Below are positions 2,777-58,243 of a stretch of 64,000 nucleotides of DNA, one piece after another; position 1 is the stretch's first letter, and every line of letters starts with the position of its first letter. Source of the stretch: Porphyra umbilicalis (Eukaryota > Rhodophyta > Bangiophyceae > Bangiales > Bangiaceae); assembly GCA_002049455.2 (NCBI GenBank), contig KV918875.1, positions 139,128 to 203,127 of the forward strand, in the 5' to 3' direction. The notes beneath the pieces were generated by a model. It made no database searches, was not told the origin of the DNA, and saw only the letters and a program-made list of their open reading frames with translations. Position numbers and translations under genes: made by a program.

Positions 2777-2906
2777 CAGGAGGGTGGGCGGGGCGATCGA
2801 ACAGAGGGTGGCCGGGGCTTCCGGCCAGGAGGGTGGGTGGGGCGGTCGACCAGAGGGTGGGCGGGGCGGTCCGCCAGGAGGGTGGGCCGAGCGGTCGGCC
2901 AGGAGA
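2777..2906. repeat. 24/25-bp G-rich minisatellite
   Basis: About five units start with caggaggg or cagaggg followed by tgggcggggcgg-like sequence. They alternate between 24 and 25 bp, giving a higher-order period near 49 bp. ORFs across it are repeat translations. Confidence 0.75.
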
Positions 2907-4744
2907 GCGAGCGGGGATGTTGGCAGCACTTGTGCACTTGGGCGGCAGCCAGGAGCGGGGCTGGGGGCAGCATGGCAGTCACCTGCACACATGCCGAGGG
3001 CGCGCATTGGCGCCGCCCAGCACTTCGAATTATTATTAATCGCCCCGCTATCCCCAAGCACAAGGCTTGACGTTTTCCAGCCCGCTGGTTGGCTGCCCGG
3101 TTGACCGGGGGCGCATCCTGGGTCCCCATTGGTAGCAGACTATCATGCCAACAGGTACTGAACAAAGTCTGGCTGACACAAGCTACGACGGTGAGGCGTC
3201 CGAGCAGAGGTCTCCATGTGCCCGCAAGAATGCATACTGTGTACGCCAAGTCTGCCTTGAACTGGGTGTGAAGGGTGCCGTTTGATCGCGCAAGGAGGAC
3301 CTGCCCCATGACCCTGCCAGAGCTCTGCACGGCAATGCCAGCAGCCGTCCCACTCTAGCGACACCGTTTGCGCCCCCATCCTCCCCGACCCCCTCGGCAT
3401 GTATGTGCAGCCCCCCTCGCCCCCCCCCCCCTGCCAGCAGGAGAAAGGAGTGGGAGAGGACAGGAAAGGAGGCAAGCACAAGTGTCCGTGGTTGGGCGGT
3501 GCCCGCAGCTATTGGGAGTAGACGAGTACGCACATGGGTAGGGGTGACCAGGTGGGTGGGGTAAGAAGGTCTCTGGGGGTGTCAGAAAGCCTTCTCAGAC
3601 AGAGCCTTTTAGAGATCGACACAGCGACATTTGCGAGGATGGTGTCACGAGGTTTGCTGCATGGAAAAACATTTCTCTCACGACCTCTCACGGTTCGCAT
3701 ATATTTTAAGTTCTCCGTGACCCAATTTGACAACGTGCTGTGCACAGCATTCACGGCTGCATTCACGGCGTTCATCCGTGAATGCAATTTTCGGCGTTTC
3801 CTATCTCCCCCATCTGTTCATGCCCACAACTCAACCTTGGGCGCATGCGTAGCCGCATGATGAAGAGCGCCATCATGGTAAGCTCCTCCTCCAGCCAGGG
3901 CCGCATGAACAACGCACCCGGGGAGTCTGGCTCAAGCGCAGCGTCGCCCACCGCCCCGCGTCCTTTCAAACGACCACGCGGTGGCTGCGGGGCGAGCGGG
4001 GGTGACCGACGGCGCGGGCGGTCGTGCCCGCTGGGGGGGGCGCCGCCCGTGAAGGCGGCGGGTGGCGGCGGCCGCCGCTGCTCGGGTCGCCGCGCGGTCG
4101 CCGCGGCGGTTGGCGGCGGGGCCGACCGCCCCGCCGGTGCTGGGGGAGGCGTCGCGGCCGCCACGTGCAGGGGGGGGGGGGGGGCGCCGCGGCGGCGCGG
4201 GCGTGGTGGGGGGTCGACGCCCCCGGGCGGGCGGCGCCGGGGCGCCGACGACCGGCGGGCCGACGCAGACACCCCGGGGGGGTGGCGCCCTACGATGCGC
4301 GGCGCGCGGGCGACGTGGGCGGGTGGCACGGGCGGCGCGACGGGGGCCGCCTGACCGCGCCGCTGTCGTTTGTTGGAAAGCGGGCAGGTGAGGCAAACGG
4401 GAGCGCAAGCCGTCACGCACGCGCGTCGGGGATTCCAGGCTCGCCGATCATCTCCGCTCACGGCAGGCCGACGGGCGGTACTCTGCAGGGCGGCCACCGC
4501 TGCATCATCATTTGTTGCGACACGTCCGCTTTTTGAGCGGGTCCGCGTGCTCTTGGCGTGCGCCCCCCACGGGATGACGCCCGCCGTTGGTCCGCCTCCT
4601 GCTCGGCGGTCGGCGGCGGAGGAGATGGCACATGGGGCAACGGCAGAGGGCCCCAATGGCCACTGGGGCACCATGGTGGCCAGTCTGTGCTGTCGGTGAG
4701 GAAGGAGTGAAAGAGGGAGAAGGAGGCAACTATGGTGTGATATG
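2907..4744. other. Low-complexity GC-rich region, no supported gene
   Basis: Contains poly-C near 3,419-3,432 and G-rich triplet sequence from about 3,970 to 4,350, including a long G run near 4,170-4,184. ORFs on both strands cross it and are Gly/Arg/Pro-rich. A plus-strand ORF starting near 3,870 has a Ser-rich N-terminus, but nothing distinguishes it from chance. Confidence 0.4.
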
Positions 4745-6431: not shown

Positions 6432-7176
6432 TTTGAGGGGGGGGGGGGGGGGGAAGGGGGGGGAGAGGCACCGCGCCGTGCCGGTCCCAAGAAGCCCGCG
6501 CGTGCGCTGGGGGAGGGGCGCGCGTGACGGCGGGGAGCCGAGTGGGGGGGGGCCGGCAGCGGCGGGTTCTGCGACCGCGTGTTGGGTGGCGTTGCCTCGT
6601 GCCTGCGGGAGGGTGCCGTGGATGGGGACGGCGCCGCCGGGGGTGGCATGGTGGTGGCGCAACCGCGTGCTTCTCAAAGCCTGTGGCTGCTTGTGTTTTT
6701 TTTGGTCCACCCGTGTTTCTGCTGTTGTGTGCTGCGTGCCACCCCATGTCGAGGGTGGGCTCCACCACCGACGGGCGCCTCGTGCATGGCGCCAACGAGC
6801 CCAACGTGTCTTGTGGGCGGCTCTCCCACGTCCGCCCCCCCCCCTAGCGCTGCCTCCCCCCCTCCCCCGACAGCGCGAGCGCCTCCCCCACCATCTGCGC
6901 GATGCGCACAAATGCTTCCCCCCCCCCCCCCACCCCCCCCCCGCCCCCCCGTGACCGCCGCACCTTGACGGTCGTCTCCTTCCCCCCCCCCCCCCCCCCC
7001 CCTCCCCAAACGAAACCACCACCGCCACGCCGTCGACCGTCGCGCGCATCGTGCGGTCACCGCGGCCGCCAACGTCAACGACGCCCGCCGCGCCACCCGC
7101 CGCAAACGACAGCGCCGTCTCCACCGCCGACCGCGCCAGCGGCAAGCGCAGCGGCGACACATAGTCCGCGCGGTGC
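6432..7176. other. GC-rich stretch 3' of NDUFA5 with poly-G and poly-C runs
   Basis: Long G runs follow the NDUFA5 stop (about 6,435-6,465) and long C runs lie at 6,918-6,950 and 6,981-7,003. On the minus strand two segments read like ordinary protein: about 7,185-7,005 (YVSPLRLPLARS, VDGVAVVVSFGEG) and about 6,920-6,860 (AFVRIAQMVGEALAL). These may be 3' exons of the minus-strand gene annotated next. Confidence 0.3.
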
Positions 7177-9015
7177 TCAGAGGGCGCCGCCCCCGACCGG
7201 CGGCGGCTGCCGGGGCCGTCTGACGCGGAGCGGCGGAGGGAGAGGATGCTGCGGCTCCGCGCCATGCCCCTCCCGCCGCCGCCGCCGCCCGCTGCGCCGC
7301 CGCCGCCGCCACCGCCGCCGTCGGCGGCGGCGGCGGCGGCGGCGGCGCCGTCGGGGGCCCCCCCGCCCCCCGCCCCGCCGGCTGACGCCCACAGCCGCAG
7401 GCGGCTGCGGTGTTTGCCGCCGCCACTCGAGGCCGACGCGAAGGAGGCGTCGGCGCTCGCCGCGCGGGCGCCGGCGCCGCGGGCGGCGCCCGCCGCCGAC
7501 GGGCGGCGGCCGCCCGGCGCGCGCAGCGGGGCGGTCACCTTGTCGCGGGGGTGCGCGTGCCGCGCCGACGCGGCGCGGCTGAGCGACGCTGCCGCCGCCG
7601 GCGTGCCCGCCGCCGCCGAGGGGGGGGGCCGCCGCCGCCGGTGGCGCCCCCACCACGCCCCCGGTGGGCGCCGGCGGCGGCAACGGCGGCAGCGGCGGTT
7701 GCCGCGCCGTCGGGCAGCGACACGCACGCGCGCAAGCCGGCGGGGGGGGGGCGACGGGTGGCGCCGCGTCGGCGGCGGCGGCGGGGATGGCGGGGCGGCC
7801 GGCGGCGGCGGCGCCTTGGGCGGGCCCGTCCCCGGTCGCCGCGCCCGGTGGCCGTGGCGGCCGCCGCCGTGCGGCCTTTGTGCCACCCCGACCGTGGCCG
7901 GCGGCGACACTCACGGCGGCACTCGCGCCGGTGGCGGCAGCGGCGCGCCCACCGCCGACACCGCTCCCCCCCGACGGGCCGACCGCCCCAGGCGTGTCAA
8001 TCTCCACCCACGCGGGTGACGACAAGTCAATCGCCCGCGCCGTCGACCAGTCGCTGGCGGCAGCCGTGCTGCGGCCGCCCCGCTCGGGGCGCGGGGGGCT
8101 CGGCCCGAGCGCCGTCAAGTTGAGCGGCCGCGGCACGGGGCCGCCACCGCCGCCCGGCCCATCGGCGGCGCTCGTAAAAGAGGCGGCGGGCGCCACGGGC
8201 GACGGCACGTAGGAGGAGCCGTCACCGTCCTCGTCGGTGGAGCTCTCCTCCTCCTCCCCCATCGGAAGGGACACGAAAAACGCCATCCGCGCGCCGCCAC
8301 CGTCCGGGGGGGGGGCGGCACCGCTCGCCGCTCGTGGCGCTGGCCCCTCCCCCGGCGGCGGGGAGCGGATGACCAGCGCGGCGGCGGTGGTGGGCGTCCA
8401 CGCCCACCGCCCCGTGTCTGGCGTCGAGGGGGAGGCAAAGGAGGCGTTGCCGCCGCCGCCGCCGCCACTCCCACTGCCGGCGCCCCCCCCATTGCCGCTG
8501 CCACCACTCGCGCCGCCGGCGACCCCCCCACCCCCGCCGGCACGCGTCGCGGCGCCCCGCCGGCGCCCCGCATCCTGCCGCGGCGACGCGGGCGTCAGCG
8601 CAAATGAGTCGTCGTCTTCGGCCGAGCCGACCCAGCCGCCGCGCGTCGCTGGCGGGGTGGCGCCGCCCGCCGGCGGGCGGCCGGTGCGGGCGGCGGGCCC
8701 GCCGGGGGCGCCCGTCGCGGCGGGCACCGTCGACGGCGCCGACGTCCACGAGGTGGACGAGGAGGCAACCGACCCAGACGTGGTCGGCGACGACGCCGAC
8801 GAGCTCGACGGCGACGCGGCGGCGCGGCGGCGTGCCGTCCCACCGCCGGCCGTCGGCAAGTGCAACGACGGTAGCAGCGGGGGTGGCAGCAGCGCCTGCT
8901 CGTCCCCGCCGCCGCGGTCGACGGAGGAGGCCGCGTCGCCCGACAGCATTTCCATCAGGTCGGCATACTCCTCCTCCCCGTCAGACGACGCGGTGGAGGT
9001 GGACGACGTGGACGT

Positions 9016-13911: not shown

Positions 13912-16900
13912 CTACAGGTCCTCAGAAAACGGCTTCCTATTGAACAACACAAAATGGAGGCCCTCTCTCTCAATCGTGGCGACGACTTCGGCCACGGCGC
14001 CGACTGGTACGTATCCACACGACCCGCCTAGCCCGAGGATACACTCAATCCCGTACTTGGAAGCCGCGTAACCATACCGGCCGGGGCGGTCCTTAGCCGA
14101 CTTAACGCGCTCTACGTAGGCGAAGGCCATTGCTTGGCCATCGATGAACGCGGCCGCGTAGTGTAAGATGGCCCCAAACGTTGAGACTGAGCGCTCCCCC
14201 ACGGAACCGACGGGGAGGAAGAAATGTTCTCGGGAGTTGATCCGTACCAAGTAGTTATGGCGCCGGCGCTTGTCGCAGTCCGACCCGACAGGCCTAGATC
14301 CGGCAATTCTTCCGAACGCCAGCTTAGCTCGGTAGTACTTCTTAGCCAAAACCTGAAGAGGCACTTCGTCGGCGTTCTCTTGGATCATCACTGCCCGCAT
14401 TCTGAAAAGCTTCGCCCCTCCAAGGCCCACCGGCTCGCTCCTAGGTGGTAGCAGCGCGCAGTCAGGGCCGACATCCTGAGGTACCTTCAGGCTGCCGCGA
14501 GGAAGACCGGGCGCCGTCCAACGTTTCTTAGTTGTTTCTGCCCATTCGGTGGGTAACTATTGCTGGCCAAAGGCAGTAATGAGGTCGGCCTTGCATTTTC
14601 GCGTGACATTCTTGACGAGGGTGGCGTGCGGTCTTGAACTGGAGCGTATCAGCTTTCCCAGCGTCCCAATTTTCCGTTCCATCGGAAACTGCCAGACGAC
14701 CCAGGCTGGGCGGCACGCGCGGAGCAGCGGAGCAATGTCCAGAAGAGAAGTAATTGTAGACAGGCAGAGCGGTAACCGCTCGACCGATCCGCGGTATGTC
14801 TTATCGTAGTAGTTTGCCAAGAAGTACATGAGATCGTTGTCAGTTGACTGGATATCCGCCTCAGATACGCCCCTAGGTCGGAATAGCAGACGGCAGGCGC
14901 GGCTTAGTGCCATGAAGATCTTGTAGAAGACACTTGGAATCCGACTTGCCAGCAGTGCTTCTCCGCTGCACAGGATAAAGTGCATCCAGTGGACCGCCTT
15001 GAAGGACCTCTGATGAAAGTCGATATTTCTCAGAGATATGGCCTGGGCCAGGGGCACCGTCTGGCGCGCCTCCCGCAGCTTCTGGCCGATGAGGGCCACC
15101 GTCGCCTTCGGTAAGAAGTAGTGTTTGTCCTTCTTGTTGTTTACCAGCTTAACCCCAGCGAAGAGCTTCCACAGGTGCGGCACAATGCTTAGGAGCACCA
15201 AGTGCATGGTATCGTAGGGGGCGGCGGTAGGACCCATTGTCCATAAGTGTTTCAGGTGCGGGTAGGCGGTGCGCATTGCTGGGCTGGGCGCGAAGAACAG
15301 GCAGTAGCCCTTGACGCCATTCTTCTGCTGCAGCCTTGTCTGGTACGCAACCGATCTGCCTTTTGCACGCGCGTCCTCCACTTCAGCCGCACTTACGGCG
15401 ATACTTGCGGCCGTGCGTCGCGGTACAATGCAGTCTTGTACTTTGAACAGGGACTTGCCGCTGAGATCCTTGGGCGGGAAGTAGACATGGCTACTTGCAG
15501 GAGTGTAGATTCACTGGAAGAGACGAAAACGGTTGCAAATGTAGCTGCTGACGCCAGCTTGCTGACAGAGCTTGTCGCCGCCGGGCTGATCCGTCGTAAA
15601 GTTGAGCACTCCGGCTTTTAACACGACTGGGGTTAGCGAGTTGGCTACTATTACACCGGGAACACCCTTGGCCAGCTCGTTCAACTCTGCCGCAATGGGG
15701 TGTAGAAACGATTCGAGGTCGGCAGGTTGTCTTGGCCCAGGCGTTACGACCAGCAGTAGCTGATACTTCGTGCGCGTCCGTTGGTTAGGGCTCAGACTCA
15801 GGGGTGTGGCCGTAACCGGCCAGCCTTCGAACCCGTTCTGCCGAAAGAACTGAAAGCCGTCGGTTCCACAGTTAACTGGTACGAAAGGGCCGTGATCAAG
15901 TAGTCCTGCATCGCGGTAATGACGGAAGTTCGAGCTGTGGGGGTAGTCGTGGACCCTGTCGGCCACTTCATCCACAGCCTTCCGCGCCGCAGCCATGTTC
16001 TCCATCATTGACTTCCCAATTATGGGGTCGCTGAGAAGGTAAGCCAACCAGGATGTCAAGGACCAGTACGTGACCTGTTTGGCCGGCTTGCCGTTGGCTT
16101 TGAAGCGCGGTGCTCCGCAAGCGTCGCACGTGGTCTGTTGCGCGCGCGTATGGGTGAAGGCCACGCACCCGTGGACGCAACAGTCGACTAACCTTGTCTC
16201 CAAGTTGACGCTTGCATCGACGAAACGCTCCATAAGGTGGGGCGTGCAGTGCGTGGCCGCGGAGGAGCTTAATTGAAGTAGATCCGCAATCGACGCTTGC
16301 GTCAAATCGTGTTGAACTGTAAAGGCATGCAGCGCAAGGTCTGCTCTGCAATCCTTAAACTGGCCCACCGTCAGACGCACTTTGTTCGTGCTGACGGTTG
16401 GTTGGTAAATCGGGATTGGAGGAGCCCCAATATGATCTTCTGGCTCCGGATCAGCGATGAAATCCGGTGGTGGCACGTCGTTTGACCCGTCTGATCCGTC
16501 TGATCCGTCGTTTGACGTGGAATCGCTCGATGCCACACTTGCGTCCGGCGTTTCGTCCGCATCGCATCGGCGCCGGTCCGCCTCGATGGCCGCCTGTGCG
16601 CTGGCGCCGTCATCTTCTGGCGGTTGTCCTCCCTGGCCGCCCGACGGCACCGAAAGCCCGTCGCCCGCTGATGGTCCCCCCCCCCCACAATTGGGAAGTA
16701 GGGCATTTGCTGGACCGCCACCGTGGCCGCCATGCTCCAAAAGACGGCGCTTTTCACGCTGTCGGGGGTTAAAAAAAGTTGACCGACACACCGAGTTGGG
16801 ACCACTGCGGCCGTCGTCCGTGCAGGATGGGCAGTAACAGGCGTACCGCTCGCCGACGCCAGAGGGTACTATGGCCACTGCTGCTTGGGGGTGGAGGTTG

Positions 16901-17013
16901 GGATGGGGGGGGGAGCTGGAGCAGCAGGTCGATGACGAGGCAGCGAAGACGGAGCACCGGCGGTGGCAATGCGAGTGTCGAGGGCTGATGGAACACATCG
17001 TCGGTAAGGCCAT
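13912..17013 (-). pseudogene. CACTA/EnSpm-type (Tnp2-like) transposase, two in-frame stops
   Basis: One continuous minus-strand frame of about 1,030 codons, broken only by TGA at 15511-15513 and TAG at 14557-14559. The first ATG is at 17,013. The N-terminus has a Cys-rich start (CYCPSCTDDG) followed by an acidic, Ser/Asp-rich linker. Then comes the zinc-type block typical of Tnp2 proteins: DCCVHGCVAF, CDACGAPRFKANGKPAKQ and SWLAYLLSDP. The first catalytic Asp is probably in NCGTDGFQFF. The middle part (15,381-14,560) has LWTMGPTAAPYDTMH and the C-terminal part (14,430-13,912) has NYLVRINSREHFF and FGAILHYAAA, both features of this group. Such proteins cut and paste elements with CACTA ends. 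The stops make it inactive unless read through. Family assignment rests on motif order recalled from fungal and plant Tnp2 proteins. Confidence 0.75.
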
Positions 17014-17593
17014 GGGAGACTCTTTTACAGGCAATCAGGGCGAAGCAGTGCCCAATCAAGTGGCAGGATTGCACAGCTGACAGTGGAATGCTCTGGAAGC
17101 TTCCATCGGCATCTAGATCTTGACGGTGGAAGGCCAGACTGGAAGCAGCTCGCTCGTCATAAGCCTCAGGTGTTTCGACCAGGTGGCCACAAGTCTCACT
17201 TTTCCCTTCCAGCACGCACACGAGAGGGGCTCAATGCATCGCTGTGTTGGCCACCTTCCACCCGCTGCACCCCCCCCCTCCTCCAGTCTGGCAGCTCGAA
17301 GCATGCTGGTCCTGATGTCCCCACATGCCGGAATGGTCGCTTGGCGGCGGCCCAGAGCGCCGCCGGCCCGCGTCACCGGACCTTCTGTATCGGGGCACAG
17401 GCCCAGCCGGGGATACCCACCCTCCCTGAAGCCTGACGTGTCACTACGCCGCGGTGGCGATGGGGCAGGCCGAAGGTCGGGAATGTATGAGGACACGGCC
17501 ACTTCACAATTTGTTCAGAGCTGGCGGAGATTGTTGGCGTGCGAAGCGGCATGAGCAGAGAGGCTGAGGATGCCATCCAGTCCGATCCGCGAC
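17014..17593. other. 5' flank of the transposase relic
   Basis: No further protein homology is visible in any frame. The transposon end probably lies here, but no inverted terminal repeat with the 13.8-kb side was found by eye. Confidence 0.35.
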
Positions 17594-27080: not shown

Positions 27081-28094
27081 ATTTTTGTTTCGTGTCTGCC
27101 AGGCGTGACCCCTCTGGAAGTGCACGTGGCTCGGTTGTCAAGCGCCAAACGCTTGGTTGGCGCGCTTCCAGGCGATCCGCTGCCAAATCGGTAGAGGCGG
27201 GCCCCGTGATTTCGAGGGTCGCTTGGATCAGAATCTAGCTGAAACAGTCGTATTTCTTTCGCGCCACAGCAAGAACATTACTGTCACATTTCCTTCGCAC
27301 CACTGTGCCAACGTACGATCAGGTCAGCATGTCTTTGGCGAGTGAAATGTCCGTGCCAGTTCACACTCGAAGTTCTTTGCACCGATAGGTGCGCGGGGCT
27401 GGGGTGAAGCGGGGAGAGTACGGAAGGGTACTATTTTGGAAGACGCATGTTGGAGGCGCACTCAATGAGTGATATGTAGAACTCTCATAAGAACAATCTC
27501 TCTCCAAAAAAACCAAAGCTTTCTGACAGGTATTGAGCGCACCTTTTCCCGCTGAGATTGCTTGGATGCGACCGAGACTCACAAAGACACAAAGCGCTAG
27601 CCGGCCCACGGGCACCTCGTTCATCAAAGTATTCGCACCGCACCTCCGCCCACGTATGCACCAGAGACTTCGGACACTCTGACAGTTTTCGCGTTCGCGC
27701 CACTCCCCAGCCATCTTTATCGCCCTAAAACCGACCTTCATCACAAATTTCACCCGGCACCACGCCTAGTTAGCACTGAGTGCTTGTGCTCTTCTGGGTT
27801 TTCAAGGGCACTGATGCGCCTGGTTGGCTCCTCGTCCCAAATACGATAGCTCATTGGTCACCTGACATTTTGTCAGCTGATCGGGCCGTCCTTCGAATCA
27901 GGCGCCAGATTTCCATGGCGGAATACAACGTGGCCAAGCCCACCCGCTCTCACTGACGCATTGGGACCAGTCGGGCAACGATTGTTTCGAGTTGGTCCGA
28001 CGAAAAGGAAGCGAGGCCGAGCCTCTTCCGGACGTCCCGCAACACTGCGCGACGGATCGTACGACAGTACCAATACCATCGCCACTGTCCGGTG
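27081..28094. other. Intergenic with a satellite fragment
   Basis: 27,683-27,770 matches the 3' half of the 363-bp satellite unit (gcgttcgcgccactccccag, cgccctaaaaccgaccttca). The rest holds no recognised gene. A minus-strand stretch near 28,080-27,960 reads RAVLRDVRKRLGLASFSSDQ and could be a small coding remnant. Confidence 0.45.
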
Positions 28095-29120
28095 TGAGCG
28101 ACTCTCAGAGCCGCGGACGTGCTCAAAACCACTTTCTGACGGCAGATTATGACTCAGTGTCCCCTCAGCACCCATGTAAATATAGGGGGAACTTCTGCAA
28201 CTGTGGCCCGCGTGGCCCATGCCGCACGACACTCAAAATGCAACCGGGTGCAAGTGGTCACGGAGTGGGAAATGCGACTATCTCTGGCTGTGCTTATGCT
28301 ATGGCGGTGTTTTATAGCTCATTCGATAGGTCTCGGCGAGAGGAACGCTGCCGTGCGCACAAATGAACATGAAAATGTCGCAGAAAAAAGATAGTCTGTC
28401 GTTTTCATGTCACTGCCACTTCTCTATGTGAACGACTCTCAGAGCCGCGGACGTGCTCAAAACCACTTTCTGACGGCAGATTATGACTCAGTGTCCCCTC
28501 AGCACCCATGTAAATATAGGGGGAACTTCTGCAACTGTGGCCCGCGTGGCCCATGCCGCACGACACTCAAAATGCAACCGGGTGCAAGTGGTCACGGAGT
28601 GGGAAATGCGACTATCTCTGGCTGTGCTTATGCTATGGCGGTGTTTTATAGCTCATTCGATAGGTCTCGGCGAGAGGAACGCTGCCGTGCGCACAAATGA
28701 ACATGAAAATGTCGCAGAAAAAAGATAGTCTGTCGTTTTCATGTCACTGCCACTTCTCTTTGTGAACGACTCTCAGAGCCGCGGACGTGCTCAAAACCAC
28801 TTTCTGACGGCAGATTATGACTCAGTGTCCCCTCAGCACCCATGTAAATATAGGGGGAACTTCTGCAACTGTGGCCCGCGTGGCCCATGCCGCACGACAC
28901 TCAAAATGCAACCAGGTGCAAGTGGTCACGGAGTGGGAAATGCGACTATCTCTGGCTGTGCTTATGCTATGGCGGTGTTTTATAGCTCATTCGATAGGTC
29001 TCGGCGAGAGGAACGCTGCCGTGCGCACAAATGAACATGAAAATGTCGCAGAAAAAAGATAGTCTGTCGTTTTCATGTCACTGCCACTTCTCTTTGTGAG
29101 CGACTCTCAGAGCAGCAGAC
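28095..29120. repeat. Three near-identical 334-bp tandem repeats
   Basis: The landmark tgagcgactctcagagc (or tgaacg) occurs at 28,095, 28,429, 28,763 and 29,097, exactly 334 bp apart. That gives three complete copies and the first 20-odd bases of a fourth. Copies differ at only a few positions (for example accgggtgc versus accaggtgc). Each holds a 97-codon plus frame starting MSLPLL in copies 2 and 3. The array stops 50 bp from the C-terminal end of the transposase at 29.2-31.9 kb and may be part of that element. Confidence 0.93.
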
Positions 29121-29171
29121 GTATTCAAATCTACTTGTGGCCTAACGGTGGTGTTTTATTTGCCCTAACCG

Positions 29172-31892
29172 TCAGATGGCGCGCTGCATGTGCGCGCCAA
29201 CTGTTGTAGCCGCCTCCTTGGTAATCCCCGCCGCCCACATCTTGCGCTTCTTCGCGGCTTTTCGGCTCTCTGCCCCACAAATTGGGAGCTGCGGCTTGTT
29301 CTCCCGCCGCCGCTTGTCACCGACCTTACGTGCCATGCGGGCCCCCGGTACAGCAGGCTTTCGTCGCGGCGCGTAGCGCGCAAGTACATCAGCCCCTGCC
29401 TCTCGTGCGAGTGCCATAGCCCTCATAAATGCCGCCGCACGCTCCAGCTCCGTGGCACCGGGGTACTTGACAGCACTCTGGCCGTAGCGGCCGTGCCACG
29501 CCTCTAAGCCCTGCTCCCCATACAGCCCGATACTGCCAAAGGACTCCAGAAAAGCCGGAGCATGGCACATCAGGATGTGCAACTTTGGTGAGATGGAGAC
29601 CCAAGGAAAGCTTCCCTTCAGCAAGCGCACTATTGCAGCGGTGTCCGCCCTAAAGAGCGCGGCCTCAGCGCGGGGGATGATCGACGCACGGTTAAGGGTT
29701 TTGCGCACCCGATTCCACAGCGACCACGCCTGTTCGTAGGCATCAAGGTAGCTCTGTGAGACCTTTCCCTTGAGCGCGTTACACACGAGCGCACTGCTGT
29801 CCCCAATAGTGTGACAGTCGCGGCCAATGATGAGCCCGCCATGGTACGGCGTAGGCCGCACGCGCACCTTCTCGTGCAGCAGGCCAACAAGCTCGAGGGC
29901 AAAGCTGGCGCCCGCCTGTCGCCCAGCAGCAGCGCCGTCAGCTGAGCTCCGAAAGGCAATCACCATCTCAACAGCAAGCCGCAAATACCGATGGTTAATT
30001 CCTAGCGTGCAATGCAGTGGAATTGGTGCAATTTGCCGCGGGTTGATGGCAAGTAGGGGGCTTCGCTCCACCGAGCAGTGGTGCTCGGCTGTGCCGGGCT
30101 CCCCCACCACCGCCGCAGCGCCTTCAGCAACCATCCGATCGGCAAAGTGCGTTGCCTCTCGCAGGTGCCTGCGGGTGTCAACGTCTTGGAGGGTGCCATA
30201 GGCATCGTCGAGTACGGCCTGCGCGACACTCGGAGACCGCGTGCTCTTGCATCCCAGGCAGGGCTGCGTCGCAGACGCACCCTTGTGGCCCAGGACGTTG
30301 CACTGCGCTGCGTAGTCGCTGCCGAGCAGCAGCCGCACTGGGCGGTGCACACCGTGCACCAACATCCCATCCCGAAGCAGAGCGTCGACCTGCGGGAGGT
30401 GCGTCTCGAGCATTGCCGCACGCTTCTCGTACTTGTCGTCCTGGCAGGGGCAAACGGCCACCAGTATCGTGTTGGATGGACTGTTGGGGTGGGCTTGGTT
30501 AATAATTGTTGCCACAATTTTCACCGTCCCCGGGTCGCCTCCTTTGTCGAGGCCGAGGGTGATCTGCACGTCGAGTTCAGACGGAGAGGAAGACCCGGGA
30601 AGAACCGCGACCGCCGGTGCTCCGGCGGAGCCACTGGGCTCCCGTTGGGTGTCAGCCAGAGGTCTCTCGACGAAGGCGTCCGCGTCACACAGAGCGGAGA
30701 CCCTCTCCTGGATGGCCGCAGTGAGGGATGCCAGATGGGCGCCCGAGCCCGTGACGATGACCTGCTTCTCCGGTAAATCAGAGAGCTGCCGCCGCGCGGC
30801 CCGGAGCACAGACAAACTGGCTAAGCCACTGCGGCGCCCCCCCAGAGCCAAGCGCCACCGGTTGAACCCGATATGACTCAGTCGCAGGGCCGCTGCCAGG
30901 CCCACCTGCTCGGCCACAGTGAGCCGCACGGGCTCACGGGCGGGTCGCGGGCTGTCGCGCCTCGTCCCCACCATCCCACCGCGCGTGTCTTCCTGCAGCT
31001 TACGCGCGGCAGCGCGGCGCTTGTCATCTTGACTGCTCTTGACCAGAGCCTTCCGCGGCGACATCTGCCGCGCGTACACGACCACGCGTCCATTCGTGTG
31101 CTTGAGCCGGATCTGGGGGCGCTTGCCACGCAGCAAAATTGCGTTGGCAATTGCCTCCAGCACCGACTTGTCCTCCTCCCCGCCTCAATTCCCATCCACA
31201 AGACAGTCAAGTAAGTCCTTGCAGCTTGGAATTGCCGCAGGCTCGGCCGCCTGCGTCGGAGCGGGTAAAGGCTCCGCGCCACCCGTCGCAGCTGGCGCAC
31301 CTTCGTGGGGGTCGGCCGGGGGACACAGCTGCGCGTCTGCGGCCTCGCCAGGCATGGGCGCCGCAGGACGGCCTCGCTCTTGCCGTGCCTGTAGATGACA
31401 CGCGTCATCTGGCTCGTCCGTGACCCGAGCGTTCCCAACGGATGCAGAAGTATCTGTGCAGCCCCCTGAAGGCATCAGGCTGACCACCGGCGCGCTCGTA
31501 GCCATCGTGCTCGAAGCCAGACACGTAGAGGGTCCCCAAACGCGAGACTGCACGCCGGCAGAGGCGGGGGGGTGGGGGGTGGGAGTAGCAGGTGTAGCGG
31601 GCGCCGCGCGACGTGCCGCTCGTGTGCGCCTGGCATAGCACTTGCCGCAACGGCCGCGGGGAGTGCCAGACGCGTCCATGCCAAGCACCTGGGCCCCTTG
31701 TTTGCACAATATGACTGGAAGGCTGGCAACGACGGCATGAGGTGAGCCAGGAGGGTGAGACTGAGCCCACTCCCGCCACGCTTGCATCCCTTTTGTGGGT
31801 TTGAGGAGGAGCCGCATGCAGTCGACGCATTGATAGGCCCACACTGTGCCTTTGAACGCAACGCCAATGTCTGCTGCGGTTGCCCTGTTCAC
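29172..31892 (-). pseudogene. DDE transposase resembling the RAG1/Transib core, one in-frame stop
   Basis: A single minus-strand frame of about 906 codons, open from about 31,892 and broken only by TGA at 31,185-31,187; the true start is not defined. The upstream part has zinc-type pairs (YQCVDCMRLL, CGKCYARR) and a Pro/Ala linker. In the 663-codon downstream part, candidate catalytic acids are D206 (ITLGLDKGG), D283 (LLLGSDYAAQ) and E551 or E555 (GLYGEQGLEAWH). A C-x2-C pair (PCLGCKST) and PIPLHCTLGIN lie between them, and KLHILMCHAPAFLESFGSIG precedes the Glu. This order, with Cys pair and LHC motif between the second Asp and the Glu and an H-x-P-FGSIG block before it, recalls RAG1/Transib, but I could not test it. 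The C-terminus is basic. No terminal repeats were found by eye. Confidence 0.6.
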
Positions 31893-32535
31893 AGTGTAGT
31901 TTCAAGATGCAGCGAAAAGGACAGGTGGCACGCTGACATGCAATAGATTGAAGCATTTGACAGGAGGAAAAGGTGAGCGTAAGTTCCTTTTGCGTGCCCA
32001 ACGCGTCCGTCTTGCGCCCGTCCAGCCCAGGACGAATTTATCGAACCCCGTCAGCCCCGTTGACCCTCCGCTGGTGTGCTTGTCCTGTCAACACGAGCAA
32101 ACGTTACACAACAACAGAACTTACGTCCGGTCTTCATCGTCGTCCGCCATTTTGGGAACCACCACAGGAAGACGGCAACGGCACAGGGAGTACTAAGTGG
32201 CTTCTGAATCACCTGCAGGCGCAACGCGCAGCAGCGCGCGGGCAAGACTTGATCCGGCCGATCAAGTCACACGCCGTCCCCGGCTCATCCTCTGTTGCAG
32301 AGCCCTCTCAAATCGGCCGGAAAGCCCGGTTCGGGTCGCGTCTCCTGTTCCGGCGACCCCTCTCACAGAGGCCGTAGAGGCATAATTGGCGACGCGTCGC
32401 CAATTCTGCCCCTAAGGCCTCTGTGAGTGGGATCACGCTCTCTCGACCACTGAGATTTTAGCACGTTGAAGGAACTATTTTCGAACGTCTCGTGTAAAGC
32501 TCAGACCCAGAAGAGCACGACAAACTAGGCGTGGC
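31893..32535. other. Intergenic, contains a long palindrome
   Basis: Apart from the palindrome at 32,362-32,427 nothing is recognised. The stretch may contain the 5' end of the transposon described just before. Confidence 0.4.
32362..32427. repeat. 66-bp near-perfect palindrome
   Basis: The outer arms are ctcacagaggcc and ggcctctgtgag. The inner 22 bases, centred on ggcgacgcgtcgcc, are a perfect palindrome. Only three or four unpaired positions break the whole 66-bp inverted repeat, so it can form a long hairpin or cruciform. Confidence 0.9.
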
Positions 32536-33902
32536 ACCCCCGCCCGCGTATGCACCACATACTTTTGACACTCTCACACTTTCCCCAACCCACCTCCCGT
32601 CGCCCATCCACCTCCTAAACTCAAACTAGACATGCATTCCGGGCCTCTTCCACGCCCTCTACCCGTTTCCGTCGAGACCTTAGACGTTTCGCATGGTCCT
32701 CGTGCCCATGTGCGGCATATCGCCAAAGGACCTATAAGTGACCTCTTCGACCCCCTAATCCAGAGCTCTCTTCAACTTAGCCACACCAGCCCCGTGTCCT
32801 ACGGGTCCTCAAGAGACTTGCATAGCTCCCGCGTTCGCGACACCCCCCAGCCAACTGTCTCGCCCTAAAACCAACCATCATCACTCATTTCTTGCGGCTC
32901 CCCCGCCCATGTCTGCACCACTTACTGTTGACACTCTCACACTATCCTCAACCAACCTCTCGTCGCCCATACAGCCCTTAAACTCAAACAAGACATGCAT
33001 TCCGGACCTTCCCCACGCCCTCTACCCGTTTCTGTCGAGATCTCCGACGGTCCGCATGGTCCTCGTGCCCATGTGCGTTATACCACCAAAAGACACATGA
33101 GTGACCTCTTCGACCCTCTAATCCAGAGCTCTCTTCAACTTGGCCACACCAGCCCCGTGTCCTACGGGTCCTCAAGAGACTTGCATAGCTTCCGCGTTCG
33201 CGACCCTCCCCAGCCAACTTCATCGCCCCAAAACCAACCTTCGTCACTAATTTCACCCGGCACCCCCGCCCAGGTAAGCACCACATACTGTTGACACTCT
33301 CACACTATCCTCAACCAACCTCTCGTCGCCCATACAGCCCCTAAACTCAAACTAGACATGCATTCCGGACCTTCCCCACGCCCTCTACTCGTTTTCGTCG
33401 AGACCTCCGACGTTCCGCGTGGTCCTCGTGCCCATGTGCGTCATGCCACCAAAAGACCTACAAGTGACCTCTTCGACCCCGTAATCAAGAGCTCTCTTCA
33501 ACTTCGCCACACCACCCCCGCTCCCTTCGGATCGCCACCAGACTTGCATAGCTTCCGCGTTCGCGCTACTCCCCAGCCAACTTTATTGCCCTAAAACCAA
33601 CCTTCATCACTTAATTCCTCCGGCACCCCCGCCCCGGTATGAACCACATACTGTTGAAACTCTCACACTTTCCCCAACCCACCTCGCGTCGCCCATCCAC
33701 TTCCTAAACTCAAACTAGACCTGCATCCGGACCTTCCCCACGCCCTCTACCCGTTTCCGTTGAGACCTCCGACGTTTCGCATGGTCCTCGTGCCCATGTG
33801 CGTCATGCCACCGAAAGAACCATAAGTGACCACTTCGACCCCCTAATTCAGATCTCTTTTCAACTTCGCCACACCACCGCCGTCCTCTACGGGTCCCCAC
33901 TT
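32536..33902 (+). repeat. 363-bp satellite, array 2 (about 3.75 copies)
   Basis: Unit starts (atgcattccgg) are at 32,632, 32,995 and 33,358, with a fourth at about 33,721 (acctgcatccgg). Period is 363 bp. The 78-codon MHSGP frame is open in the first three copies. The fourth unit is interrupted at about 33,902 by the element that follows and resumes at 36,551. Confidence 0.92.
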
Positions 33903-36550
33903 AAGTCTACCCCATTCTATTAGACCCCTCAGAACAGGAATATTTTTGTCTTGCTATAGCTCGTCCGCATCAACAGCTTTTTGCAAGCGGATTTCTCGTG
34001 CGCAATAAAGACCCACTCGACATCCTTGTTTAAGAAAATCGGTCGGATAGGCAGTCGACAAGTGTCTCATCGTCGTGCCTTAACACGGCACAAAACTGTC
34101 TCTGGGGGCTTTTCGCCGTCCCTGCCCGACAAGAAAAGACACCAACAAGGAATTTGGCCTCCAGCCGATGTCCCCGTATCCTGTCGAGTCATACTGGCCA
34201 CTGGTCGCGGTACTCCAGCTGACATGACGGTCTACAGAGGCCTGCCACGAAGGTCGTAGCGAAGAAGTGCAAAAATCTCGCAACGATTGAAAATCATCCA
34301 TCGGAACTGTGGGGCTACTTTGAAGATTTCTTGATCCGCCGAGTGCGCGTTTTTTATCCGAGATCGGCGAGCCTGGGCAATCTGGCGCTTCGCGCGCGCG
34401 CGTTTTTTTTTTGCCCAAGCCCTGCACACTGCGAGCTGCTGTGGCCGACTGAGCCCGTGCGCCGCGCCTCACGCCGCGGCCGCCCCCGACTGCGTCGTGC
34501 CCTTCTGGTTCCCCGCGCGCCCCTCTGCCCCGCACCTTCTCCCAACGCCCTTCCGCTCCACGCCCCCCGGCGCCCCCGAGCCCCCATCTGCTCGCGCCTG
34601 AGTGCTCTGGGTGTTGCCTTGCGCAGTGAGTCGCAATGCCGACCACGCGTGCGGTCGCGCGGAAGCCGCGCACGCGCGTGCGCGCGGTGCGCCGCATCAC
34701 ATGGGAGGTTGTGCTTCTTGTTGGCGGGCTGCGTGCCTTTTTCACCCCAGAACGTGATAACCATGCGGCAGAGGTGCTGGAGTAGCCCGTCGACCGCACG
34801 GCGGCGGCGACTGGGCTGAGCCGCAGCACGGTTATCCGTATCGCGAACGGGGAGTATGCCGATACTCCACCCTTGTCGTGGAAGCGGGAGCGTCGTGTGA
34901 GTAAGTGTTGCGTTCCTGCCTCTGAGATTTCGGGTGTGCGCGAGACCGTGTACACCCAGTACGCAGATACAACTGTTCCCACATTAGCACCCTCGCGCTA
35001 TTGGAGAAAGGGGCAGGTGAGGGCGACGACCTCTCCGACTACAAGTGGTCTCGATCAACGCTTCGCAAAGCAATTACGGACCTGGTATTCAGCTTGACAT
35101 GGGGCCCCAACCACTATGATGAGGCTCGCGAGAAGCGGTCTATCGTCAAGCAACGCTAGAACTTCATCAAGAAGATGCAGGAGTATCGTGCAGACGAGCG
35201 CACTATCTTCTACACCGACGAGACCTGGGCGAACAAGAACATGACGAAGGGGCAGACTTGGACGGACAAGTCGTCACGCGCTCGCCTAAACGTGCCACCT
35301 GGAAAGGGAGCACGGATCATCATCGCGCATGCCGGGTCACGTAAGACAGGCCTCGTGCCAGGTGCAAGTCTCGTCTTCAAGGGCAAGAAGAAGACGGGCG
35401 ACTACAACGGTGAAATGAACTCGGCGGTGTGGCTCAGGGGGCTTCAAGACCAAGTGCTTCCCAAGATTGGCGGTGGGGTGCTTGTCGTCGACCGAGCTCC
35501 CTACCATATGAAGCTGATCGAGGAATGCCGACCGGCTTATTCATCGATGAAGAAGAGCCAACTGGCTGATTGGCTCGAGGAGCACGACGCGGCACCGACC
35601 AACTGGCTGCCTACGTGGCGCCAAGCCAAGACCGTGGCGCAAATGCGCGCCCAGGCCGCCAAGCATCGACCGATTCCACGCTACTTGGTGCAAGACTTGG
35701 CGCAGGAGTTCGACGTCTCAATCATCTTCTCTCCTGTAGCACACCCAGAGCTCAACCCAATTGAGATGGTGTGGGGCACCGTAAAGGTTGCTCTGCGCTA
35801 TGCCAACGTCACTTTCAACCTTACGCGTCTCTAGGAGCTCGTCGACGTGGAGTTCGACAAGATGTCGGCAGCGATCTGGGCGAAGAACGAGGACCACGCC
35901 ATCAGCATGGAGGACTAATACATGGACATGGCGGCCATGAAGGCGGAGGTGGAGGACCGTGCCGATAAGACGGACATTTAGCAGGAGGACGCTGAGGCGA
36001 ACGGTGCGAACGGTTGTAGCTCCAGTGAGGAGGATGGGGAGGATGAGGGGTACGAGGATGAGGAGGATGTGGAGTGAATGCGACTTTGTCGGCGTGGGCA
36101 TGCTTTGATTTGGGCGTTGACAGAGAAATGTTTTGAGGGAGTCACAGATTTTAGCATGTCAAGACGGCTTGCTTGGCGCCAGCGCTTCAATTTATGATGC
36201 GCGGCGCTTCCGGCATCGAAGATCCTTGGATGTGGTCGCGCGAGCATCGCGTGTTGATCAATTGTCTCTTTGAATCTGAGTAAAGTAGCCCCTAAAGTTG
36301 GGATTAAGTTCGTATCGGATTCGACAAAATCTGAGATGGTCCGGAACGAACGGTATCGGTGTGACCAGATCGATGCCGCTGGAGGTGTACACACCACAGC
36401 GGCCGACGAACTGCGCTTCTCAACGTGATTTTTGGTGTGCTCACGCGGAACCCGCCATCGAAGGTTACTACAAAGTTTGAAACCGTTCGGAGCAAGCACG
36501 CTAACGATAGGCTCCAGAACACCAGGTGTCTAATAGAATGCGAGAGACTT
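33903..36550 (+). mobile_element. Tc1/mariner-type element inserted in a satellite unit
   Basis: The flanking satellite reads ...gggtccccac on the left and ta-gacttggatagcttccg on the right, which rejoin into a normal unit when the element is removed. Both termini begin aagtct, and 13 bp of perfect inverted repeat (cattctattagac) follow a few bases inside. A TA abuts the right end (36,551-36,552) and tt/ta abuts the left (33,901-33,903), as expected for TA target duplication with one changed base. Length is about 2,650 bp and it carries the transposase relic at 34.7-36.1 kb. Confidence 0.85.
34704..36077 (+). pseudogene. Tc1/mariner (DDE_3) transposase, several stops and a frameshift
   Basis: The N-terminal helix-turn-helix region is readable (TAAATGLSRSTVIRIANGEY, from about 34,790) but is preceded by TAG at 34,783. 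A frame change follows near 34,960-35,000. The core continues LSDYKWSRSTLRKAIT, then TAG at 35,157. It then runs IFYTDETWANKN (first Asp) and VVDRAPYH (second Asp; the usual Asn is Arg), with a long insert before HPELNPIEMVWGTVK (Glu). TAG at 35,832, TAA at 35,916 and TAG at 35,979 interrupt the acidic C-terminal tail, which ends at 36,077. The family moves elements by cutting at TA sites. This copy cannot make a complete protein. Confidence 0.82.
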
Positions 36551-54646: not shown

Positions 54647-57600
54647 TCACACCCACCCAGGCACGTCGTAGCCATAGTCGAAGAAGAGCTCCTCTCCGGG
54701 AGCCAACGGAGCCCGGGCAAATAAGCCGACCCTGATTTGGCCGCTCACGTTTAACAGCTTTGCCTCAACGTTGGCGAGCTCCTTTCTTCGGTGATTGATG
54801 AACTTCGTCCGATTGCCCTTGTACTTGGCATCGATGTTGACCGTCTTCGTGACAGAGTACAGGAAGCTGACGCCCATTGCGTCGTAGACGCGCCCTCGTG
54901 CATGTGCCTCCCCGTTGGAGAGTAGCTCGCCAACATACTCACCGACAAAGTCCCCGGCAGCCGCCGGCTCAGCTGCAAAGACCCCAAGACCGTGTGCGCC
55001 TGAGCGGCCGAGCACACAGCGAACTCGAGCACCGACCTGTAGTTGAACATTCCGGCAACGGCGCCGACCGACCGCCTCTCCAGCAGCCATGCCGTCGCTA
55101 GCAACGTCCGCTTCAATAAGGAGCCCAGCCCCACGCAGAGGCGGTACACCGGCGCTTGGGCCAGCTTGACCGGGTGGTGTTGGCAGCCCGTCGACACCAG
55201 TATCCGGATTCCAGTGTGCACCGCACGTGAGACACGCATCGGGGTCGCACTCCCGGTCGACGCTGAAGCACGGGCACTCGTCCGTCGCACACCGTGACGG
55301 CGGCACGCATGCGCACCAGGTGCGCCGGTTGCAGTGCCGAGACGCAGAAGCTGGCGCGGCGTCGATGAGCGCCAACGAGGTGCCCGCCGACGACGCAGAC
55401 CGCCCCGCCGCTGCCCGACAACCAAGAGCGCACCAGCACGACTTCTCGCACGACAGTCCCACCCTTGCGCACCTGCAGCGCTCTGCCGTGCACGCACCGA
55501 CGTGAAAACACGGCATGAAGTCATGCACCTTGTCAGGCGCGTCGGGATCCTCCTGACTGCTGCCGTTCGTGGTTCTCCCAGGCGAGGAAAACGCACCCAG
55601 GGACAACGGCGGTGAAGCCGGATGCGTGTGAGTTTGCTGCAAGCCACGTGCAAACGCCGCCCCAGCCCCCGTCACGGGCGTGGAGCTGTCGCGTGCGGCG
55701 GCATCCACGTCGACATCTTCGTCAGGCGGCTGTACGTGCGACATGCCCCGCCCAGTCCACCCCGCCCCTGCAATGTAGTCAGCAACGCCGCGACACGTCT
55801 TGCCAGGAATAAATCTGGCGAGAAGACAAGTGTCTCCGTCCCCGACAATGTCTGCGCCTAGGTGAAGAAGCGCCACCTGTGCGTCACTCCAATCATCGAC
55901 GGTCGGCTTCTCGTACGTCATGGCCGCCTTCACGCGAGCGTCGTGGCGACACTCCGCGCACCCACTGGCTGCTGCGGCAATGGAAGCATGCAAAATACCT
56001 GCGCGACCACCACGGCGACCATCCGACACGGAGGGCCGTGCGAAGACGGGTACATCACTGTCGGGAACGTGGTCGTCCTCATCATTGACCACGAGGCTGT
56101 CAATGCCTCCACACAAACGGTCCAAAACGCCTCTCGAAGAGCCAACAACGTTCTCGCACGCGGCAGGATGACCCGCGCTGACGCCTTCGACGCCAAGACC
56201 CACACCAGGACAGGGAGCGCTGCCAGCCGCGACACTGTCAGCGTCACCGTCGCTGTCGCTGACAGCCACATTACGAGAGGGAGCGCTGCCAGCCGCGACA
56301 CTGTCCGCGTCACCCTCGCTGTCGCTGAGCACCCTGCGACGGCGATGCCGCTCGCGGTGCGCGGAGGACGCCGCGTGGAATGACGCTCTCCACTCTCCAG
56401 GGACGACCCCCGCAACCCGATCTGGGTCCGCGCGCGCGTTTGCATCACGGCCTCGACACGCATCATCACGGCGAGCGACAGGTACAGACGACGACGGCTC
56501 CACCGTGTGCGTGCCGTGCACGCGACAAGTGTAGCGCAGGCACGTTCGACACAACAGACGCAAGAAGACTTCTCTCGACGTCCCATAAAAGTCGAACGCC
56601 GGCGCACACTCGGAGGCGACAGCGTCTGCGCGGTCCACATGGTCCGTGGAGAACAGAGCGCCCATACACGGCAGAAGCGTGACCGCGGCAGGACCCTCTG
56701 GAGCACGAAGGGCAGCGTGAACAGACCGCAGCGCGGCATCGTCGGCCCGCAGCGCGCCGTTGTCGGCGTGCGACTCTCGTACAAGTGCGGCTTCCCGCGT
56801 CGCCCACGCGCGACTGGCGGGGGGAAGACCAGCAGCGAGCACGTCAGACGCAGCTGTCGTCGCAGCGACGGCGAGCGCCACGGCCGCGGCCTGATGACCA
56901 TGAAGGTCCTCATGGCCGAGGCGCCCGACCTGTGCCACGCACTCACCGACCGATGGACTGACGACTTGCTCCCTTACGGCTCCAGTGCCGAGAACGACGG
57001 CGAGGCTTGCACCGCCCGTCAAGCGCTCGATCGCCGCTCGGCTCTTGGCGCGCGCGGCTCGACCCGCAGAAGCCCGGCGGTGGTCAGCCGCTCGACGCTT
57101 GATGAGTTGTATGACGTGGGTCAGGAAGGAGACGGTCTCGCCCAATGCGCTGCTCATAGCGCTCACCACCGCAGGTGATTCACCCAGGGCCTCCACGACA
57201 GCTTGCACCCCCGCCCGCTGCGCCGACCGACACGTAAGCGACGGGAGCGATCGGTAGTGACCGTCGTGATGAATGGTGTCCGGATCAGACGCGTCGCTGC
57301 CGTCACTGTTCCACTCGGGGGGCGCCCATCCGTTCTTTCGCATGATCTTGTCCGCCTTTGCATGCGCCTCGTCCGAGGGGCCAAGGTATGGCGTGAACTT
57401 GGCGGGAGGCACGTGCTCAAGCCGTCGCCAAGACCGACGCAATGACGTGTAAGCAGTCGCCGATGGGAGACGCTCAGCTGCTGGAAGAATCGTGACGACC
57501 ACAGCGTCGTCCGCGGCGGTGGCGCTCGGCGCCACCCGCGCGCGCCGTGCGGAGCGCAGGTAGTCGAGAATAGTGCGCTGCACCTCTCGGGGGGGGCGCC

Positions 57601-58117
57601 TCTCGTCGTCGTCAGGTTGCTCAGCGCGTGCCCCATTCTTCCGGCTGCTCCTCTCCAGGAGGCTTCCATACACCACATCCCCCCCACCCGGACTCAAAGC
57701 CTCCCCGCGACAGCAACTCGGGCCAACTCTGCTGGATGATGCCACAGTACTGGCATAGCGACTATCAACGTCGGGGGCACCAACACGCGCGAGCAACGCG
57801 GACGATGTGGGGGCCTGCTCAACAGGGCGGGAGACGGCAGCCACAGACACCGCTGCCGCGGCGCGGGCGTAGCGCTCAGCCGCGGCCCGATTCACCGCAA
57901 TGGCTATGCGACCCTCCGCGCGACGACGCCGACGAGCGCGGCGCCCCGCTCGGCCATACAGACGAAGGATGACACGCTTCAGAATAGTGCCGTCCCCAGA
58001 GGCGGCAGCCACAAGGTCGGCAGCTTCAGCATCGTCGTCCACATCGGACAAAGGCCCCTCATCGTTGGGCCAATCCTCCACATAGTTCTCCTCGGGGACA
58101 CAGCGCATTGTCGCCAT
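54647..58117 (-). CDS. Enhancer-of-zeste-type histone H3K27 methyltransferase (PRC2 catalytic subunit)
   Basis: 1,156 codons from ATG at 58,117 (MATMRCVPEEN); the frame is open to an ATG at 58,243. No intron or stop. The E(z) domain order is complete. A zinc-binding pair of the MCSS region lies near 56,550 (FLRLLCRTCLRYTCRVH). SANT follows near 55,890-55,770 (DDWSDAQVALLHLGADI, LLARFIPGKTCRGVADY). The CXC domain is at about 55,510-55,215 (CEKSCWCALGC, DECPCFSVDRECDPDACLTC). SET is at about 55,050-54,650 (GLGVFAAEP, FVGEYVGELLSNGEA, SFLYSV, GEELFFDYGYDVPGW). E(z) methylates H3 Lys27 with ESC/EED and Su(z)12 and silences genes and transposons. The normal NHS-x-x-PNC motif reads NHRRKELAN, two residues longer. 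The N-H pair is kept but the Ser and PNC are not. The linker before CXC is long, acidic and partly duplicated. Confidence 0.9.
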   Translation of the reverse strand: MATMRCVPEENYVEDWPNDEGPLSDVDDDAEAADLVAAASGDGTILKRVILRLYGRAGRRARRRRRAEGRIAIAVNRAAAERYARAAAAVSVAAVSRPVEQAPTSSALLARVGAPDVDSRYASTVASSSRVGPSCCRGEALSPGGGDVVYGSLLERSSRKNGARAEQPDDDERRPPREVQRTILDYLRSARRARVAPSATAADDAVVVTILPAAERLPSATAYTSLRRSWRRLEHVPPAKFTPYLGPSDEAHAKADKIMRKNGWAPPEWNSDGSDASDPDTIHHDGHYRSLPSLTCRSAQRAGVQAVVEALGESPAVVSAMSSALGETVSFLTHVIQLIKRRAADHRRASAGRAARAKSRAAIERLTGGASLAVVLGTGAVREQVVSPSVGECVAQVGRLGHEDLHGHQAAAVALAVAATTAASDVLAAGLPPASRAWATREAALVRESHADNGALRADDAALRSVHAALRAPEGPAAVTLLPCMGALFSTDHVDRADAVASECAPAFDFYGTSREVFLRLLCRTCLRYTCRVHGTHTVEPSSSVPVARRDDACRGRDANARADPDRVAGVVPGEWRASFHAASSAHRERHRRRRVLSDSEGDADSVAAGSAPSRNVAVSDSDGDADSVAAGSAPCPGVGLGVEGVSAGHPAACENVVGSSRGVLDRLCGGIDSLVVNDEDDHVPDSDVPVFARPSVSDGRRGGRAGILHASIAAAASGCAECRHDARVKAAMTYEKPTVDDWSDAQVALLHLGADIVGDGDTCLLARFIPGKTCRGVADYIAGAGWTGRGMSHVQPPDEDVDVDAAARDSSTPVTGAGAAFARGLQQTHTHPASPPLSLGAFSSPGRTTNGSSQEDPDAPDKVHDFMPCFHVGACTAERCRCARVGLSCEKSCWCALGCRAAAGRSASSAGTSLALIDAAPASASRHCNRRTWCACVPPSRCATDECPCFSVDRECDPDACLTCGAHWNPDTGVDGLPTPPGQAGPSAGVPPLRGAGLLIEADVASDGMAAGEAVGRRRCRNVQLQVGARVRCVLGRSGAHGLGVFAAEPAAAGDFVGEYVGELLSNGEAHARGRVYDAMGVSFLYSVTKTVNIDAKYKGNRTKFINHRRKELANVEAKLLNVSGQIRVGLFARAPLAPGEELFFDYGYDVPGWV

Positions 58118-58243
58118 TGTGGCAAGGCGAGACGGGGTCCGCGGCCGCGACCAGCCACAACGAGATGCCGACAGCTGACAATGGGATGCCGACAGCTGAC
58201 CGTGCTCCCCCCGACGCACCTCAGCAGGTGTCGTGACCTGCAT

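Follow-up and report, generated by a model that had tools for sequence, protein, structure and literature searches.

Chapaev transposons, whose hallmarks are a 3- to 4-bp target-site duplication (TSD), CAC/GTG termini and the transposase motifs C(2)C, LH and H(4)H (PMC4079192), have been grouped with EnSpm, Mirage, Transib and RAG1 in the CMCT clade (PMC12730594) and were placed inside the Transib superfamily by other authors (PMC4411706). Animal Chapaev transposases correspond to the Pfam family DUF1280, which has been assigned to the same clade as RAG1 (PMC3985635); C(2)C and H(3-4)H are common to CMC members, and the TSD of EnSpm is 3 bp (PMC12730594). All Subgroup I Transibs have unequal ends (PMC9435367) and some Transibs have 12/23 ends (PMC8355894). 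The RAG-like (RAGL) element of Aureococcus anophagefferens, AanRAGL, combines 4/13 spacers with a 5-bp TSD and a RAG2-like gene (PMC9435367), and amphioxus ProtoRAG has bipartite ends of 27 and 31 bp, the lengths of which matter for activity and in which CAC is critical (PMC8289069). Such asymmetry of the ends has been published for RAG-like elements and for some Transibs. For Chapaev, no report of unequal ends was found in the literature searched (most subscription papers and Repbase Reports lay outside it, so this is weak evidence of absence), and among the matches listed in our literature searches there was no paper on Chapaev in algae. Here we describe an element, very probably of Chapaev type, in a 64,000-nt stretch (hereafter the window) of contig KV918875.1 from the red alga Porphyra umbilicalis, together with its family in the 83.8-Mb assembly of 665 contigs that was searched. 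In that assembly 10 of 11 phycobiliprotein matches fall on a single 185-kb contig (best match 199 bits), the pattern expected of a red algal plastid; of 14 control genomes only that of a cyanobacterium gave a match. By this test, too, the host is very probably a red alga. The new point is its pair of bipartite ends, with spacers of 8 and 18 bp.

Bipartite ends with unequal spacers

The complete element spans 4773 bp (27761..32533), has CAC...GTG termini and is flanked by the 4-bp duplication GCAC. Its boundaries are sharp in alignment with other copies: position 32533, on the transposase-5' side, is common to seven copies (loci L009-L015), and the 3' boundary at 27761 to five, those whose fetched stretch or contig extends that far. 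Each terminal repeat consists of an outer box, CACGCCTAG, a spacer and an inner box, GCTCTTCTGGGT:

27757..27760, no strand: target-site duplication, left copy, GCAC on the plus strand, identical to 32534-32537
27761..27799, minus strand: terminal repeat, transposase-3' end (outer box 27761-27769, 18-bp spacer 27770-27787, inner box 27788-27799)
32505..32533, minus strand: terminal repeat, transposase-5' end (inner box 32505-32516, 8-bp spacer 32517-32524, outer box 32525-32533)
32534..32537, no strand: target-site duplication, right copy, GCAC on the plus strand

The same arrangement, with 8 bp at the transposase-5' end and 18 bp at the other, was found in all 15 full elements in which a pattern search located both ends (six of the window subfamily, five of the L020 subfamily, and L018, L025, L028 and L029). 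When the exact boxes were searched for genome-wide with any spacer of 0-30 bp, 176 ends were recovered, against none for the reversed pattern, and 175 of these had a spacer of 8 bp (89 ends) or 18 bp (86 ends). No exact end in the genome had a spacer of 9-17 or 19-49 bp; the single end outside the two classes, the place of which was not located, must have a spacer of 0-7 bp. One of the 86 18-bp ends is a nested start before an 8-bp end and was dropped, leaving 174, and four close neighbours that are not convergent were left out of the pair count. Convergent neighbours no more than 15 kb apart form 49 pairs (43 of which span at most 6 kb), and every one of the 49 joins an 8-bp to an 18-bp end; among them are 29 pairs under 2 kb (789-1777 bp), which are too short to hold the transposase frame and are therefore non-autonomous. 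Random pairing would yield exclusively mixed pairs with a chance of 2e-15, a figure that is only a guide because the copies share common descent. The ends thus fall, in the manner of a 12/23 system, into two classes about one helical turn apart that are paired unlike in every one of the 49 convergent pairs. Loose-pattern matches with other spacers inside loci (L010 at 2192, 20 bp; L029 at 2496, 29 bp) bound no element and were set aside as chance.

The 8/18 spacing is kept in lineages about 40-70% identical to the window protein. Locus L034, 45% identical to the window core, has a different inner box and a different 10-bp insert and is still 8/18; L035 (41%) has 18 bp at its 3' end and 8 bp at a decayed 5' end, L036 (39%) has 8 bp at its 5' end, and in both L016 and L035 the decayed 5' outer box sits 8 bp from the inner box. 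L027 retains an inner spacing of 8/18 despite an insert resembling a miniature inverted-repeat transposable element (MITE) in the TA of the outer box at both ends. L017 showed no 5' end, the ends of L030, L031 and L033 were not found, and the 3' inner box of L032 was not recognised. Because the length stays while the letters change (L034, L035, L036 and L027), we read the spacing as constrained, and this constraint is well supported.

The MITE-like inserts of L027 measure about 680 bp (2836-3519 and 7122-7805), lie in opposite orientations with arms 96% complementary, and have a 4-bp GCAT outside them; a copy 91% identical lies at one end of the L036 element (1026-1706). Either repeated targeting of the outer-box TA or conversion between ends could account for them.

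With ends set by the repeats alone, a 4-bp TSD was present in 12 of the 15 full elements (0.07 expected from mixed pairs; the exceptions are L010, L013 and L024) and in all 10 non-autonomous elements fetched. The 5-bp match expected of a Transib or RAGL element occurred in one of 15 and one of 10, respectively, and the 3-bp match expected of CACTA/EnSpm in one and two. A preliminary description of the locus, which had overlooked the ends, suggested looking for terminal repeats and 5-bp duplications in other copies; the repeats are there, but the duplication is 4 bp. The 25 duplications, among which those of L032 and L034 came from a search that weighed TSDs and hence stand outside the count of 12 in 15, are 73% G+C compared with 63% in the loci, a base preference too weak to press.

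That unequal pairing of the ends is required seems to us somewhat more likely than not. The asymmetry might instead be merely inherited, from an ancestral 10-bp insertion in one end that binding tolerates and does not require: all copies are related by descent, both ends are copied together so that mixed pairs would stay by default, and spacer letters are partly conserved (TTAAG and CAGTG in many 18-bp spacers). We take this possibility seriously but would not bet on it, since it has to accommodate the lack of exact intermediate or longer spacers over a family 39-97% identical to the window copy, the wide variation of the spacer letters (for example, L034 and L035 against L009) and the uniform 8/18 state of the non-autonomous pairs under 2 kb. 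Much less probable is a role for the 10-bp difference in a promoter or silencer at the transposase-5' end instead of in synapsis; the short end does lie at the transposase start in 15 of 15 full elements, but the difference is kept in copies too short for the transposase frame, and the length of the opposite end is fixed just as much.

A transposase with a RAG1-like predicted core

The transposase frame runs on the minus strand from stop to stop (31901..29172) and comprises 909 codons plus the stop, with one in-frame TGA at codon 239 (31187-31185). Residues are numbered in the 670-aa part after this TGA:

31185..31901, minus strand: N-terminal part of the frame, 238 codons plus TGA, with a C-x2-C...C...C-x2-C zinc-type domain at about 31608-31877
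31185..31187, minus strand: in-frame TGA, which breaks the frame of the window copy; several other copies are open at the same place
29172..31184, minus strand: transposase core, 670 aa downstream of the TGA, with predicted dimerisation/DNA-binding part, RNase H core, zinc insert and C-terminal part
30546..30548, minus strand: D213 (GLDKGG), predicted catalytic
30315..30317, minus strand: D290 (LGSDYAAQ), predicted catalytic
30249..30260, minus strand: C309-x2-C312, predicted zinc site, first half
29562..29579, minus strand: H536-x4-H541, predicted zinc site, second half
29502..29504, minus strand: E561 (GEQGLEAWH), predicted catalytic, 20 residues past H541, like E962 past H942 in RAG1

The frame of the window subfamily has no ATG ahead of the first C-x2-C (31810-31990, minus strand), and another subfamily begins MGNRATT at the corresponding place; a short spliced first exon is likely for the window-subfamily frame.

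The transposase core matches 67 places in the genome at 42-100% identity (a lower bound, with some places being two pieces of one copy), and at 24 of these the reading frame stays open, free of stops, over 860 codons or more. L009 and L010 are identical at all but 4 of 5109 aligned bases, a near-identity that suggests recent movement of family copies. The preliminary description had seen here a transposase relic with a RAG1/Transib-like motif order. All the motifs on which it drew (GLDKGG, LGSDYAAQ, C-x2-C, PIPLHCTLGIN and FGSIG...GEQGLEAWH) are indeed in the 670-aa part on the minus strand, at residue numbers 6-7 higher than those given (D213, D290 and E557/E561 for D206, D283 and E551/E555), whereas "relic" suits the window copy, with its one stop, and not a family with so many open frames.

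In an alignment of 16 members of the own-genome family (39-97% identical to the window core), D213, D290, C309, C312, H448, G449 and G450 are identical throughout. The histidine of LH, H391, is found in 15 of the 16 and the preceding leucine in 12 (V in three, S in one). H536, H541, S551, G553 and E557 are present in all 15 proteins that extend that far, and E561 in 14 of them, the exception being L027, whose broken frame stops at that point. In its predicted fold the protein resembles RAG1 and HzTransib far more closely than other transposases, with 12-15% identity in the structure alignments with RAG1, and hhalign of the family profile against mouse RAG1 925-1003 scored 31.3, compared with 25.7 for the best of 200 shuffles and 14.0 for the reversed fragment. 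The conservation across the 16 aligned proteins, together with an hhalign score above the shuffles, makes the motif pattern more than chance. Neither phmmer of the core nor the family profile found a transposase among PDB sequences; three lines of evidence carry the link to RAG1, namely the predicted structure, the spacing of the motifs and the hhalign test. The transposase is predicted to have a RAG1/Transib core, in which an RNase H fold carries D213, D290 and E561 and the pairs C-x2-C and H-x4-H hold a zinc-binding insert. This predicted catalytic fold is of the RAG1/Transib kind but may be common to a wider clan, so it does not by itself settle membership in Transib/RAGL.

Pfam DUF1280 matched the window core at a borderline level (4.2e-5; 23.7 bits, cut-off 25). 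At E<=1 it matched 15 of the 16 family members (best 3.6e-8), and 25 places in the genome reached E<=0.001, 24 of them above the cut-off, two of these only with neighbouring pieces; the same search of 14 control genomes gave no match. No RAG1 family, Transposase_21 or DUF1258 was detected in the 16 members with Pfam at E<=1; weak matches to Fe_hyd_lg_C and other Pfam families (best E 0.017) were treated as chance. NCBIfam and PHROGs returned no match (three proteins each), and none of 11 pattern matches in viral contigs was a relative. Between the second Asp and the Glu lie the C(2)C, LH and H(4)H motifs of Chapaev, C(2)C in 16 of 16 members and H(4)H in 15 of 15 that extend that far. In the window-subfamily alignment all eight transposase-5' ends and all six 3' ends begin with CAC; the other ends were found with a pattern that itself begins with CAC and are thus no independent test of it, though 4-bp TSDs abut them, and one outer end of L027 reads CAT.

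We file the element as Chapaev because the DUF1280 match is accompanied by the TSD, termini and motif hallmarks, and regard it as highly probable that the element and its family are Chapaev-type cut-and-paste DNA transposons with a RAG1/Transib-type predicted fold and the anatomy described above, which have multiplied in the alga; Chapaev is the section of the CMC group nearest to RAG1/Transib. The earlier proposal of a distant RAG1/Transib relative or sister DDE lineage is thereby partly supported, keeping its core idea under the name Chapaev. It is unlikely that the family belongs to another CMC branch (CACTA/EnSpm or Mirage) or to a new one beside Chapaev. Of the 220 profile positions of DUF1280 no more than 47-65 are covered by the match, the window contains a CACTA-type gene (Transposase_21) at another place, and C(2)C and H(3-4)H are shared among CMC members (PMC12730594); the members nevertheless lack Transposase_21 and DUF1258 matches at E<=1, and their 4-bp TSD differs from the 3 bp of EnSpm (PMC12730594). 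A Transib or RAGL element is less probable still. RAG1 and HzTransib are the closest solved folds, but a Chapaev hit was not to be expected from the fold search, as we know of no solved Chapaev structure. Unequal ends are typical of RAGL and Subgroup I Transib (PMC9435367) and RAGL occurs in the alga Aureococcus; against this, the TSD is 4 bp here and 5 bp in AanRAGL, and the 16 members match DUF1280 but no RAG1 family (Pfam, E<=1).

Other features of the element and the window

Two further features lie within the element:

28093..29136, no strand: 334-bp tandem repeats, 3.1 copies, the copy number of which differs among window-subfamily copies
32355..32434, no strand: near-perfect palindrome of two 40-nt arms without a loop, in the 5' end region, present also in L010 of the same subfamily

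Tandem arrays of similar period (334, 333 and 321 bp) occupy the same place in the 3' parts of the L010, L020 and L016 subfamilies, and the window unit showed no detectable sequence similarity to the arrays of the two other subfamilies (333 and 321 bp). We rejected the repeats as arrays of binding sites: the exact inner box occurs only at the two ends of L010, and the unit had no match in 16 loci of other subfamilies. The palindrome was likewise dropped as a general feature, as it was not found in the end regions of three other subfamilies (L020, L025 and L028). A 363-bp satellite of 3.8 copies (32533-33896) adjoins the element, and to the eye the left flank near 27720-27760 is similar to it, which suggests that the insertion took place within the satellite array or at its edge. 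Elsewhere in the window are a CACTA-type transposase region from another CMC transposon (15511-17034, minus strand; Transposase_21, 1.5e-7), two DDE_3 transposase frames (35160-35834, plus strand, 6.4e-10; 59834-61735, minus strand, 4e-14) and a 1203-aa frame with CXC and SET domains (54647-58258, minus strand; SET 4.3e-16), which presumably resembles an E(z)-type histone methyltransferase.

Proposed mechanism and comparison with known systems

From the computed element, ends, duplications, family, predicted fold and spacing we infer the cutting chemistry, the assignment of domains to boxes and the need for unequal pairing. The element would move by cut-and-paste DDE chemistry, with the transposase cutting at the outer CAC of each terminal repeat, probably leaving hairpins on the flanking DNA by analogy with RAG and Transib, and joining the ends to target DNA with a 4-bp stagger. 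The outer box would be the cleavage site and the inner box a second binding site. We consider it likeliest that a dimer of the transposase takes hold of a short end together with a long one, as RAG does in its 12/23 arrangement. The inner boxes, at their unequal distances, might then be reached by a second, flexible DNA-binding part, for which the N-terminal zinc-type domain and residues 227-307 of the full-length model are candidates. Compared with the 5' end, the inner box of the 3' end is set 10 bp deeper into the element, about one helical turn, an offset that keeps it on the same face of the helix and would fit a clamp reaching both.

Near-identical copies, open transposase frames and two clean end classes make the pairing rule directly testable by spacer changes, and with it bring the origin of the 12/23 rule within reach of experiment. 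That unequal, one-turn-offset pairing is the ancestral working rule of the whole Chapaev/Transib/RAG clan strikes us as doubtful, yet if it were true, antibody gene assembly would in its 12/23 rule follow a late version of a rule already operating in red algal transposons, where there is no vertebrate immune system and perhaps no RAG2. A predicted RAG1-type fold with the zinc and acid spacings of RAG1 in a red alga also bears on the age of the clan.

With animal Chapaev the element shares the DUF1280 region around the first Asp, C(2)C, LH and H(4)H, CAC...GTG termini and a 4-bp TSD; it differs in its red algal host, in its bipartite terminal repeats with 8/18 spacers and apparently in a large extension at the N terminus, which has a zinc-type domain of its own. 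The P element also has unequal spacing, so this alone is no mark of the RAG clan; its structural match to our transposase is far weaker, and no sequence relation was found or tested. AanRAGL resembles the window copy in its bipartite ends starting with CAC, unequal spacers and RAG1-type catalytic protein (PMC9435367). Its spacers are 4/13, as against 8/18 here, or 3/13 if both boxes are drawn longer, and it has a 5-bp TSD and a RAG2-like gene where the Porphyra element has a 4-bp TSD (a RAG2-like or kelch-type gene was not searched for). ProtoRAG likewise has unequal bipartite ends and CAC, but its ends differ by 4 bp instead of 10, its TSD is 5 bp and RAG2L is present, whereas the ends of HzTransib are described as symmetric (PMC8289069). 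Vertebrate RAG1, in contrast to this mobile element, has 108 residues between the first and second Asp (77 here) and 254 between the second Asp and the Glu (271 here). Its D708-C727-C730 and H937-H942-E962 spacings are nevertheless identical to those of the algal transposase, the GSIG block is shared, and its 12/23 signal spacers differ, as do the ends described here, by about one helical turn (11 bp there, 10 bp in Porphyra).
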